A stretch of DNA of 25,591 bases, taken from a virus. The stretch spans positions 1 to 25,591 of the IMG/VR virus record IMGVR_UViG_3300021197_001570; one strand, written 5' to 3'. A model generated the notes under the pieces. That model searched no databases, was not told the DNA's origin, and was given only the letters and a program-made list of their open reading frames with translations. Of the stretch, positions 14,819 to 19,823 are shown one piece after another (position 1 is the first letter of the stretch; the number at the start of each line of letters is the position of its first letter). Position numbers and translations under genes: made by a program.

Positions 14819-15786
14819 TAGGCAGCCTCCAAGGTTGCAACACGGGTTTCAAGAGCTTCAATCTTTGTAATTGATTCTTGTAATGCTGCAGTTAAGAGCG
14901 GAACAAGCATTTTTAGAAAAACGCTTTGAGGTTCGATATCGCCGTTTTCGTCAACAGCATCTTTTGCCCCGCAAATGCTTTCAGGGACTACTTCGCCAAT
15001 TTCGTGTGCAATAAATCCGTCTAAAGTCGTGCCAGGGTTATCAATAAAGTTAAACCTTACAGGTCGCGCTTGTTTAATTCTATCGATGGCGCTAGTCAGG
15101 CTGACTACGTTTTCTTTAATTCGATAGTCAGAAGAAAGAGTAAAATCACCGGCAGTGCCATTCCATATAATACCAAACCTAAAAATTCCATTTGTGTTGA
15201 AGTTCAGGTGTTTGCCAACACTTGCATCGTTAGTGCCATAGCTACCCATCATGTTGAGGGTTAAGGGGCGCTTGGAATCAGCCGTTCCAATATGAAGAGG
15301 CCCATCATCCTGAATTGACAGTCCTTTAACAGTGTCCTTATTTGAATTAGTACCGTTGGTTGGATTGACAGTTGTTGTCTGTCTGGCACAAGGGCCAAAC
15401 GTAATTGCGTTGGTTTGACCGTCCAACGTTCTGCCAAAAACAGATTGCTTAACTCCACCTCGGATAAACGCCAAGGAGGTATAGGCACTGTCGTACCTAA
15501 TACCCACGTTAGTGTCAGAGCTGAAGAACAATGAAGGTGCAGCGTCTGTTCCGTCTGGAAGGGATGTTCTTCCGTCTAAGGTTCCAAATAAGGAATAAGC
15601 GGTGTTGTCAGAATTACGGATCTTTAACTGATTTGCGCTTGTGTCAGCCCAAAATTGGTAGGCAAAAGTCGTCGCTGGTGGCGTTTCCCCGCTGTGATTT
15701 GTAAAAGCTGCAGCTATCTGCGAATTAATGTCAGCTCTTACTGCTGCGCCGCTTCCGTTAGCGACAACGCCATCTGCTTGAGCCAT
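14818..15786 (-). CDS. Tail fibre with C-terminal S74-type intramolecular chaperone
   Basis: A 322-residue protein. The N-terminal region (SGAAVRADINSQIAAAFTNH, QFWADTSANQLKIRNSDN) is a known fibre start module. The C-terminal 105 residues form an intramolecular chaperone of the peptidase S74 type: LSSDYRIKENVVSLTSAIDR at 218-235 with Ser219-Asp220 at the predicted self-cleavage position, RPVRFNF, GFIAHEIGEVVPESICG, then a coiled-coil trimer end (ESITKIEALETRVATLEAA). By family knowledge it folds the fibre as a trimer and then cleaves off. It lies directly after the J gene, so it may sit at the tail tip as a receptor-binding fibre or side fibre. Confidence 0.85.
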   Translation of the reverse strand: MAQADGVVANGSGAAVRADINSQIAAAFTNHSGETPPATTFAYQFWADTSANQLKIRNSDNTAYSLFGTLDGRTSLPDGTDAAPSLFFSSDTNVGIRYDSAYTSLAFIRGGVKQSVFGRTLDGQTNAITFGPCARQTTTVNPTNGTNSNKDTVKGLSIQDDGPLHIGTADSKRPLTLNMMGSYGTNDASVGKHLNFNTNGIFRFGIIWNGTAGDFTLSSDYRIKENVVSLTSAIDRIKQARPVRFNFIDNPGTTLDGFIAHEIGEVVPESICGAKDAVDENGDIEPQSVFLKMLVPLLTAALQESITKIEALETRVATLEAA

Positions 15787-18700
15787 TAGTCCTCGCGTGT
15801 GCCGTATCCCACCGCAGTATAGCTGAAGCGTCGATTCACAAAAGTGTTACTGCCTGAAGTGCCCTTAAACGTGATCGTGAAACCTTCTGCGGTCGGTTCC
15901 GGCATTACGTAATAATCTTGCGAATCAAAATCTAAAGCAGTTATACCAACCGAAACGCTTGTATTACCGTCAACGTAAAAGGCTTTGTCAAAAGTCACGC
16001 TCTTAGGACCAAGGCCAGAATCTATGTACTTGCTGTTTTCAGAGCGGCGTTCAAGCTGGAACGTTACGCCCAGCTCGTCAACAAGCGGAGTTTGGTCGTT
16101 TCGCTCTGTTATAAGTTCAGCCTTGAATTGGAAATAACGTCCCACATACGAATTGTTTTCAAGCGGTATCCACTCTTCAAAGAAAATATCTGATTCCTGC
16201 CGTATATACGAAGCACCAACGTCTGTGTTCAACTGCCCTCCCATGCCTGAATGGGCTGAGCAGTAGTAATAAAGAGTCGGAGCACCGGCATTTAAAACAA
16301 TTTGCGTGTATGCGCCTGCGGTCCCTGGCGTTCCAACCGTTGTCACTCCTGTTGTGTAGGCAGAGCCCCCGTTATGCGTTCCGTCACTTACTTCGCTTAT
16401 CTTTAGCGGATGCCCAGAATTGCTTGCATCTGATTGGTCAAAAACATAAATATTGCCTTCTTTCAAGGTTAAAGTTTCATTGTCAGTGCTAGAGCCATCA
16501 ATTCGATACTTGTTCCCCCCGGAACTAACAACTGTTACAGCCAAAGTAACTGTGCTGCCTTCAAACTGAATTTTTGATCCATCTTCGTACAGGATTTCTG
16601 GATCGGCTACAGAAGGGTTAGCTGTCATTTTTACTTGGTTTTCTCTCCTGAAATAGACTTGAACGTCTGTGCCGTCAGGGATTTCGCCATCGAAATCAGA
16701 CCAGATGTCAATATTTTCTGTTCGGTCATCAATTAAGTCGCTTAAATAAAGACCTCGCGCCGTTAGGACACGTCGCATCTTGACGCTGTATCTAGCCCCT
16801 AAATCGACAATGTTGTAAAAGAAGTATTCACCCTTAAGGACTTGCTCTCCAATAAAGTCAAAGTACCCATAGACCGTTCCTGTACCTGAACCTGGCCCTG
16901 TAGCTGTAAAAATAGTTCCTATATTATTATCGCTAGCACCAATAACAGTAAAGTCGGTCGTGCCTGCAGACAGTATGGCGTATTGTTCGCCGTCTACTAA
17001 AGCCGTAGCAGCCAAAGTGTTTACTGAATCAAATTGATCAACGTTTAAAACCGCATCAAAGTCACCGTTACCACTTAGCATTAACCCATCGTAGGTGTCG
17101 TTGTAGTAAACATTGCTTGACTGGCCTGGAAACGCTCCATAATCTGCGTCTTCCCTGAAGACTTCAAAGTTAAACCTAGGGATAGCATCAGGCAAATTAA
17201 TAAGGGCGCTAACTGCATTTCTGCTGCGTTGTTTCTGTGCATTCTCAAACTTGACTAAATACTCACCATTCATTAATGGCAATAAAACTGATGTCGTTCT
17301 TGCCGATACCTTCCTAAGCAAAGTGCTGTTAGGCCATATACCTGTTCCATCAAGCTTGCTTGAATGCCTAATAACAGCAACAAAGTTTGCAACGTTTTGG
17401 CCGCTAGCTGTTGGAGACCAACGCAAAATAACTTGATCAACACCAGAAGCTTCAATAGTTACTTCTTCCGGGTCAGGCGGAATGACAATTTTCGAGACAC
17501 CATCAACCCCGTCGCTCGTTCCAGGAACAGGCATTTCTCGCGATTGGCTGCCAATCTCAGATCTTTTCCTATCTGGCTGTGGGCCTCTTGCCGTAACTTC
17601 TGCGTACAATATTTCGCCAGGAAGTATGTTTGTATCTATATCAACAGAAGTGTTGGCGGTAAATACAATATTCCAGTTACCTGCGTTCCCTATTCTCCAT
17701 CTAACCTCAAAGTCTGCGACTGGCCCAGTCAAGCCTCTAGACCATGAGATAGTGGCACGATTTGTTGTGCTGGTGCCGTTATCAATTTGCTGGAATGTAA
17801 TGTTTACATCGCTTACTGAATCAGGTTGCCGACCGTAGATAAATGGTTTAGGTAGATCTAAAGTTGCGCTATCGCCCTCGACAAATTTGTAAAGGCCGTC
17901 AACGTGACGAACGCCAATGACGGAATAAACGCCACCGTCTCCTTCCGCTACTGATAGACACCGATATTTTCTAAGAACTGCCGAATCATTGGTGATTGAA
18001 TACAGAGCGTCATCAGGAGGTACTTGGGTAAAAGGAGAAACAAGCGTGACCCTATTCCCGCTAATTTGATCGCTAAAAATTGGACGGGTTTCAATTGTGC
18101 CATCTTTCATGACAACACTTATCTTGTCATTCGCTCCAGATGGCATCACTGGAGGTTGGTCTAAATCCACAAACCCTCTTCGCGCACCAACAATGCGCCC
18201 AGCCAAACGAGTTGATAGGCGCATCTCGTCGGACACTTCAAATATTTGGCCTGGCAATACGTTTAATCCTTCAAGCCCAACTGAGAAATTAACTGTGTCG
18301 TCATGCACCGTTTCTGAATGCAAAACCCAACGAGCCATACGTTGCGCTTGATATTTTGAAGTGCAGCCAAAAGCCACAACACTTTTCTCTTGTACCCCAT
18401 ACTTTTCAATCGCAGCCTGATCTTCAATAATTAGAAAATTAGGTTTATAAAAATTGTCAGGATCGTTATACCTTACGCGAACCCTAGTGCTTCTGGCTTT
18501 TAACGAAGAGCCGTTGTAAGAGAAACTTCCATTAACAACATTGGAGTTACTAAAAACATGAATAGCTGCTAGTGGTTCTGCATTGTGTTCGCCAAGATTG
18601 CCATGGTCAGCAGCAATCTGAACATTGTCTGCCTTCCAAAAGATCATTCCACGGAAGACGCTTGCCATGTCTTGCAAGACGTTATACGCCTCAGCCTGCG

Positions 18701-19823
18701 AGCCAAGCACTGTGTTAATCGCAAATCTTGGCTGCCTCCCCTCAGGCGTATCAATTTCCTCGTTGCAGTATTTTGCAAGGTCAATTAAGTCAACCCAGTT
18801 AACTTTGGCCTTGTCTACAAAATCGCCTGCCCCATAACGATCATTTGTAAGCAAGTCATAGAAGCAACAAATCGGGCAGGTGGTCCAATGTAAGTTGGTG
18901 GTAAGACTGCCGTCGAAAGGAATACTAGTGTCGAATCTAAGGCTACCGTCTCTCCTAACAGTTGCATTTGATGGGATCTGTACTTTTAAACCCTTGATGT
19001 CATACGCCCTCGCAGGCAAGGTGTTGTATTCTTCAGAGTCAATACTTAAATGGACAAGAGCAGTGTGAGGGTAACTGACCTTTATTCTTTTGCCAACAAT
19101 AATGCTGTTCCAGATAATAGTGTCTGCCCTGTTGTTAGCTAACGGTGTCGTCCTAGGCAGATCCTGAAAATCGGTGTACTTGATCTCAAAAGCGTCTTCT
19201 GCGCTGTCAAATTCTACTTTTCTAACGCGAATTTTATACGGGGCTTTGTTCCGTGAAAGATTAAATGGTTTAGTCTTAAATTGATATTGGGACGTAGAAA
19301 CACCTTTGATGATATTTCTCTGTGCTTGCCCTTCAACCCTGAACCATTTGTCTTCAAAAGCACCGCCGTCTTCGCTAAGTGCAATGTCTAATTTAATTTG
19401 AGCAAAGAACAATTGACCCCGCGCCAGCCCTTCCCTGGCAGTGCAGTACAGCTTTGGAATCGTAAACACAAGTACAACAAAGTCAGCCTCGCTGTCGTTT
19501 ATTGCGCGAGTTATCTGCCCCGTACCATAATCACGTTTTACGACCTGATTGTTGTCATTAAGCTCTTCAGAATAATTACTACCAAGCTGTTCATTAACGT
19601 CAATAATTGTTGTCTGGTCATTGCCTAGCAAAGAACTTTCGTCAAAACGTTTTTGATCTTGAGTTCCTTCCCTTGTTGCAAAACTAACTGTCTGCCCAAT
19701 TTGCCGACCTGTAACTAAAGTTTCATTCAACAAAACGCTTTTACGCCATTCAGCAAGTCCTTCAATTGGACCCTCGCAAATTGCGTCAATTATTTTAAGG
19801 TTGGTTTTTGAGTTGAGGGCCAT
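15786..19823 (-). CDS. J: Tail tip / host specificity protein J homologue
   Basis: A 1345-residue protein in the J position after I. The N-terminus contains ICEGPIEGLAEWRKSVLLNE, the standard start of lambda gpJ-like proteins. The first about 640 residues are the tail-hub part; two fibronectin III-like domains follow at about 670-870 (SDVNITFQQIDN, ATISWSRGLTGPVADFEVRW, EVTIEASGVDQVILRWSP). At about 942-984 is a small module (YAILSAGTTDFTVIGASDNN) found in many marine phage proteins. At about 1095-1204 is a cupredoxin-like domain with His1138, Cys1188, His1191 and Met1194. The protein caps the tail tip, contacts the host receptor and probably the ejection path. It overlaps the next fibre gene by TAATG. 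It is slightly longer than lambda gpJ (1132 residues). Confidence 0.88.
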   Translation of the reverse strand: MALNSKTNLKIIDAICEGPIEGLAEWRKSVLLNETLVTGRQIGQTVSFATREGTQDQKRFDESSLLGNDQTTIIDVNEQLGSNYSEELNDNNQVVKRDYGTGQITRAINDSEADFVVLVFTIPKLYCTAREGLARGQLFFAQIKLDIALSEDGGAFEDKWFRVEGQAQRNIIKGVSTSQYQFKTKPFNLSRNKAPYKIRVRKVEFDSAEDAFEIKYTDFQDLPRTTPLANNRADTIIWNSIIVGKRIKVSYPHTALVHLSIDSEEYNTLPARAYDIKGLKVQIPSNATVRRDGSLRFDTSIPFDGSLTTNLHWTTCPICCFYDLLTNDRYGAGDFVDKAKVNWVDLIDLAKYCNEEIDTPEGRQPRFAINTVLGSQAEAYNVLQDMASVFRGMIFWKADNVQIAADHGNLGEHNAEPLAAIHVFSNSNVVNGSFSYNGSSLKARSTRVRVRYNDPDNFYKPNFLIIEDQAAIEKYGVQEKSVVAFGCTSKYQAQRMARWVLHSETVHDDTVNFSVGLEGLNVLPGQIFEVSDEMRLSTRLAGRIVGARRGFVDLDQPPVMPSGANDKISVVMKDGTIETRPIFSDQISGNRVTLVSPFTQVPPDDALYSITNDSAVLRKYRCLSVAEGDGGVYSVIGVRHVDGLYKFVEGDSATLDLPKPFIYGRQPDSVSDVNITFQQIDNGTSTTNRATISWSRGLTGPVADFEVRWRIGNAGNWNIVFTANTSVDIDTNILPGEILYAEVTARGPQPDRKRSEIGSQSREMPVPGTSDGVDGVSKIVIPPDPEEVTIEASGVDQVILRWSPTASGQNVANFVAVIRHSSKLDGTGIWPNSTLLRKVSARTTSVLLPLMNGEYLVKFENAQKQRSRNAVSALINLPDAIPRFNFEVFREDADYGAFPGQSSNVYYNDTYDGLMLSGNGDFDAVLNVDQFDSVNTLAATALVDGEQYAILSAGTTDFTVIGASDNNIGTIFTATGPGSGTGTVYGYFDFIGEQVLKGEYFFYNIVDLGARYSVKMRRVLTARGLYLSDLIDDRTENIDIWSDFDGEIPDGTDVQVYFRRENQVKMTANPSVADPEILYEDGSKIQFEGSTVTLAVTVVSSGGNKYRIDGSSTDNETLTLKEGNIYVFDQSDASNSGHPLKISEVSDGTHNGGSAYTTGVTTVGTPGTAGAYTQIVLNAGAPTLYYYCSAHSGMGGQLNTDVGASYIRQESDIFFEEWIPLENNSYVGRYFQFKAELITERNDQTPLVDELGVTFQLERRSENSKYIDSGLGPKSVTFDKAFYVDGNTSVSVGITALDFDSQDYYVMPEPTAEGFTITFKGTSGSNTFVNRRFSYTAVGYGTRED

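Follow-up and report, generated by a model that had tools for sequence, protein, structure and literature searches.

A predicted cupredoxin module with a type-1 copper ligand set in the phage tail-tip protein J

The tail-tip protein J and its optional module

The window analysed here is a whole virus record of 25.6 kb, for which megablast against isolated phages gave no match. Its minus strand encodes a protein of 1345 aa that matches PHROG 31 ('central tail fiber J') with an E-value of 1.5e-132 and lies above the Pfam cut-off for the Phage-tail_3 and GpJ FNIII-A domains. The nearest J proteins of isolates include those of the Prochlorococcus siphoviruses MED4-117 and P-HS2, at 27% and alignable only as far as aa 1045. 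The features of J that concern us are as follows.

15786..19823, minus strand: tail-tip (host-specificity) protein J, 1345 aa (PHROG 31; Pfam PF13550 and PF24801 above cut-off)
17577..19817, minus strand: conserved J core, aa 3-749 (PHROG 31 match)
16557..16718, minus strand: J segment before the insertion point, aa 1036-1089, ...WSDFDGEIPD...DGSKIQFEG (runs straight into the downstream part in module-less J homologues)
16212..16556, minus strand: cupredoxin-like module, aa 1090-1204, an optional J insertion (alignment with module-less J homologues; AlphaFold2 and Foldseek)
16410..16412, minus strand: His1138, codon CAT, in SGHPLKIS, putative copper ligand 1 (alignment, profile alignment, conservation)
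16260..16262, minus strand: Cys1188, codon TGC, in YYYC, putative copper ligand 2 (alignment, profile alignment, conservation)
16251..16253, minus strand: His1191, codon CAT, putative copper ligand 3 (alignment, profile alignment, conservation)
16242..16244, minus strand: Met1194, codon ATG, putative axial ligand (alignment, conservation)
15789..16211, minus strand: J segment after the insertion point, aa 1205-1345, SYIRQESDIFFEEWIPLENN... to the C-terminus (common to J with and without the module)

The original prediction had placed a probably copper-binding domain at 16210-16530 and had named H1138, C1188, H1191 and M1194 as its ligands. Each of these residues occurs in the J translation at exactly the position claimed, and the C-x2-H-x2-M arrangement at amicyanin-type spacing is present in J and kept in most of its relatives. 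The module does lie in the interval given, which has to be extended by about 26 nt on the N-terminal side (nt 16212-16556). Beyond residue 622, Cys1188 is the sole Cys of J.

Through the J core we fetched 69 J homologues with a complete C-terminus, of which 29 carry the module and 40 have an empty site. In the alignment of these homologues the junction in the window reads ...EDGSKIQFEG[STVTLAVTV...QLNTDVGA]SYIRQESDIFFEEWIPLENN, with the module in square brackets, and at the same junction the module-less homologue L236 reads ...EDGSKILLEGSTDSHLRQESDLFFDEWIPLENN. J is about 1305 aa long with the module and about 1190 aa without it, and the framing sequences match. On the tree of the J core, the presence of the module changes at least four times. 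Two of the 29 module-bearing homologues, L243 and L246, are ligand-degenerate, and in their lineage such versions and an empty one (L250) are found among close relatives. As judged from these alignments, the module in J is a clean optional insertion.

Another short stretch of J, 'LVDGEQYAILSAGTTDFTVIGASDNNIGTIFTATGPGSGTGTV' (aa ~943-990; window 16854-16997, minus strand), looks like a second mobile module, because similar stretches are found at a different place in the J proteins of L240, L245 and L255, directly ahead of the cupredoxin site.

Predicted fold and relation to known cupredoxins

The structure of the module was predicted with AlphaFold2 from a 120-aa stretch (16195-16556) and 60 homologues (61 sequences). 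The resulting model is mostly beta, with a mean pLDDT of 90.3 and a pTM of 0.85. The ligand residues fall within blocks of pLDDT 93-98, and confidence is lower (pLDDT 76-80) in the loop that follows the first His (P0002 residues ~51-70). This His lies just ahead of the strand formed by residues 51-54, and the Cys ends the strand at 95-99, which is followed by a loop and then by the strand at 106-112, an order of elements consistent with ligands that lie close together in space. When the model was compared with the PDB by Foldseek, ranks 1-27 were all cupredoxins. The best match was rusticyanin (1rcy; E 2.5e-4, probability 1.00, TM 0.57), and the others included AcoP, pseudoazurin (one of them engineered with an amicyanin loop), laccase domains and a nitrite reductase with an amicyanin loop. 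A second model, of J 881-1345, was built on a different alignment of 41 J proteins. Rusticyanin was again the first Foldseek match (E 4.7e-4), and the module formed a separate confident block amid low-confidence linkers; the C-terminal half of J outside the module was modelled poorly (mean pLDDT 65 for J 881-1345). AlphaFold2 and Foldseek thus agree on the fold that had been claimed, also in the J context, and the outcome named beforehand as refuting it, a fold other than a cupredoxin, did not occur in structure prediction and fold matching. The module has the Greek-key beta-sandwich of cupredoxins in these models, with TM-scores against solved members that are moderate (0.5-0.6) and a high rmsd. 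The module model is also matched by the giant-virus 'beta-sandwich proteins' A0A481YVH3 and A0A481Z6J5 (E about 1e-6 to 1e-5), the viruses being Marseillevirus LCMAC201 and Pithovirus LCPAC302.

The relation to known cupredoxins was also examined at the level of profiles, with 14 genuine PF00127 proteins as reference, all taken from genomes of the bacterial class to which the Maricaulis MAG G009 belongs. The hhalign comparison gave a score of 30.5 and an E-value of 1.4e-4 at a reported probability of only 53%; 100 column-shuffled controls all scored below this, the maximum being 18.5 (E 0.02). The alignment pairs 'EGNxYxFDQSD..GHP' of the module with 'GDTVxFxxxD..HN', and 'YYYCxxHSGMG' with 'YxYxCxPHxxMG', so that the module residues His, Cys and His fall on genuine ligands (His on HN, Cys on Cys and His on His). 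The Met is paired with the first Met of MGM and misses the one that serves as ligand in pseudoazurin. Searches with single sequences and standard families gave little. PF00127 (Copper-bind, plastocyanin/azurin) had no match at E<=1 in the window and its record, and 6 of 61 relatives matched it weakly (best E 0.015), which leaves the module short of the family cut-off. No relevant Pfam or NCBIfam family was above cut-off for the module, phmmer with the single domain gave no meaningful match among PDB sequences, and the module profile reached pseudoazurin only at E 0.37, among antibody chains.

The J module carries the cupredoxin set of His ... Cys ... His ... Met/Gln with a short Cys-His-Met loop. 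It resembles rusticyanin, pseudoazurin, amicyanin and AcoP in its predicted fold and its His ... Cys-x2-His-x2-Met set, and its C-x2-H-x2-M spacing is that of amicyanin. Unlike the single-domain cupredoxins, which are free periplasmic electron carriers and usually have Asn after the first His ('HN'), the module is found inside virion proteins and has Pro at this position. 'HP' after the first ligand is also found in laccase type-1 sites. By predicted fold and ligand alignment, then, the J module is a cupredoxin that stands outside the Pfam PF00127 family.

Conservation, loss and spread of the ligand set

The H, C, H and M residues are invariant in the 61-sequence alignment. Among 258 distinct near-full copies, taken from viral contigs, isolates and genomes, 228 have all four, as do 91 of 103 representatives after clustering at 80% identity. 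These shares are inflated, because the first loci were collected with six peptide patterns, three of which include ligand residues and so favour ligand-bearing members. Second copies in the same proteins, the differently queried J homologues and the GenBank tblastn matches are free of this bias. Among the remaining representatives, 7 keep none of the ligands, 3 keep one, 1 keeps two and 1 keeps three. If the columns were independent, about 68 of the 103 would have all four ligands and about 30 exactly three, where 91 and 1 were seen; these counts are of sequences, and independent loss events are few, as the ligand-degenerate copies form three clades in a weakly resolved tree. One clade consists of second copies in gp7-like baseplate proteins of cyanomyoviruses, another of stand-alone proteins like PSS2 gp080, and the third of one J lineage (L243, L246 and L262) in which the Cys is kept and both His are gone.

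These patterns indicate that the four-residue set in the module is not due to chance. Because the ligands are lost jointly, they appear to act as one metal site. The persistence of ligand-less versions suggests that copper is dispensable for the mere folding of the domain, and we infer that strict ligand retention elsewhere is more simply explained by a function that the bound metal performs.

Several individual cases deserve mention. PSS2 gp080 (L105, 2992-3330) and L121-L124 are stand-alone domains of ~112 aa that have lost the ligand set and are annotated 'baseplate wedge subunit'; in PSS2 the gene adjoins the tape measure gene. In S-CAM22 and P-SSM7 (L108 and L116), neighbouring gp9-like and gp7-like baseplate genes both have the domain, the gp7-like protein with one ligand-bearing and one ligand-less copy. 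The only single loss is in L293, where Gln replaces the axial Met (HCHQ). Gln is known as an axial ligand from stellacyanin-type sites.

At least 597 matches to the domain were found in IMG/VR alone. Matches in 52 GenBank phage records, nearly all of them from marine cyanophages, pelagiphages and methylophages, bear out the statement in the original prediction that the motif recurs in other cyanophage proteins; the matching proteins are labelled tail fiber, baseplate wedge subunit, virion structural protein or hypothetical. Carriers among the isolates include Synechococcus phage S-TIM5, P-HM2, Syn1 and pelagiphage HTVC028P. The domain also occurs within PHROGs 27200, 30742, 693, 677 and 708, and as tandem copies in L039, L087 and L132. 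Several genome records carry it as well, on contigs that are possibly viral. The domain is probably not confined to viruses: a 335-kb contig from a Neomarinimicrobiota MAG encodes a long protein that has a full-ligand copy. The two loci on this contig (L288 and L289) encode cellular-looking long proteins, one with the full-ligand copy; the other is about 5,267 aa long and matches only in part.

A proposed copper site on the virion and its alternatives

Our main reading, to which we give a probability of about 0.6, is that the module is an independently folding cupredoxin with a complete type-1 ligand set, carried as an optional module in the host-facing C-terminal half of J. The predicted fold, the jointly conserved ligand set and the clean insertion are what the sequence analysis shows; copper binding goes beyond these, and we consider it quite likely. 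An exposed virion module with a predicted type-1 copper site is the most likely description of what lies in J. Because J is made in a reducing, copper-poor cytosol, the predicted site would probably be filled after lysis, with copper taken up from seawater, freed as the host lyses or met in the envelope of the next host. The module would be exposed at the surface of the tail tip as a rigid decoration or adhesion unit, used much as other phages use Ig-like domains. Phages might keep the copper site because it helps in contacting the cell envelope or makes the particle more durable, and might lose the whole site where such help is not called for. This role is the least certain part of the reading, put forward tentatively and with more doubt than belief; the stabilising of the tip or sensing of the host that had been proposed earlier are guesses.

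One could envision several other explanations for a conserved ligand set in this position. The fold and ligands might be those of a cupredoxin while the site in the virion holds another soft metal (zinc or nickel) or is empty, the residues serving zinc-stabilised folding or loop structure. Zinc is far easier to come by than copper in the cytosol, the site of phage protein assembly, and the ligand-less versions still match the same profile. Against it, Cys and an axial Met at amicyanin spacing are what textbooks give for copper, Met is rare among zinc ligands, and the joint loss of the ligands implies that the residues work as one metal site. We regard this explanation as unlikely, though worth weighing. 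It is also conceivable that the Cys1188 thiol forms an inter-subunit disulfide or covalent link in the J trimer and that no metal is involved. The solitary position of this Cys after residue 622 would suit such a link, as would its retention in the L243/L246/L262 lineage despite the loss of both His, but elsewhere the His and Met ligands are conserved as well as the Cys and vanish with it, and we find the proposal very improbable. A chance motif in an ordinary Ig-like domain, a thought invited by the abundance of beta-sandwich modules in tail proteins and by the antibody chains among the weak PDB profile matches, is scarcely credible and was rejected, since Foldseek twice placed cupredoxins above all Ig folds and the ligand set is conserved across hundreds of sequences.

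Two further explanations accept the copper and differ in its use. A copper-uptake or periplasmic copper system of the host might recognise the tail copper or receive it, as a copper 'Trojan horse' or a form of scavenging. The module does reside in host-contacting proteins (J, tail fibres and baseplate), and an iron counterpart has been proposed for marine phages (PMC11705849). Yet no receptor is known, the module is also found in gp7/gp9-like baseplate parts that do not obviously face a receptor, and many J proteins manage without it, all of which makes this use improbable. Electron transfer, with the module as a plastocyanin-like redox partner at or in the cell envelope during entry, has in its favour that the fold and ligands are those of electron carriers. 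This seems to us hardly plausible, given that the module is embedded in structural proteins with no redox partner in sight, and that true phage plastocyanins (petE) are separate small genes (PMC3037559).

The virion copper site proposed in the main reading can be set beside other phage systems. Ig-like and FNIII decoration domains are optional, recombining beta-sandwich modules of phage tail and baseplate proteins; the J module is similarly optional and mobile but differs in its conserved set of metal ligands. The petE plastocyanin, an auxiliary metabolic gene of cyanophages, is likewise a cupredoxin in marine phages, described in PMC3037559 as a small stand-alone gene from host photosynthesis. 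Unlike this stand-alone electron carrier, the J module is a domain within a 1345-aa tail protein, and J is not a petE gene. HxH iron sites in T4-like tail fibres (T4 gp37 tip, Alteromonas phage R22Y), together with the 'Ferrojan horse' idea, are described in PMC11705849. They resemble what is proposed for the J module in placing metal ligands in the host-contacting tail of marine phages and differ from it in fold and ligands; J has no HxH (His-x-His) motif and does not belong with the HxH iron-binding tail fibres. We found no paper in the open-licence literature that describes a cupredoxin domain in phage virion proteins. One paper that mentions both copper binding and tail fibers concerns viral nirK, which is unrelated to the J domain. 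Superfamily-level automatic annotations elsewhere could already flag the domain. The novelty lies in the location: a well-known fold and ligand site turn up where they were not expected, as a widespread module.

If the main reading is true, a type-1 copper domain is part of the virus particle. The domain is common in marine phages and yet is labelled only 'tail fiber' or 'virion structural protein', and it gives a handle for naming parts of several uncharacterised PHROGs. Its natural ligand-less and module-less versions amount to built-in controls. The recurrence of the predicted site in ocean phages suggests that copper sites are a built-in part of the infection machinery in some of them, with a possible link between trace-metal chemistry and phage adsorption. 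A more far-reaching claim, that a wide range of ocean phages bear blue-copper domains, loaded outside the cell, on their tail tips, fibres and baseplates and that adsorption or entry depends on this copper, is in our view decidedly unlikely; if it were true, infection would include a metal-gated step, and phage particles would form a pool of copper ligands in seawater.
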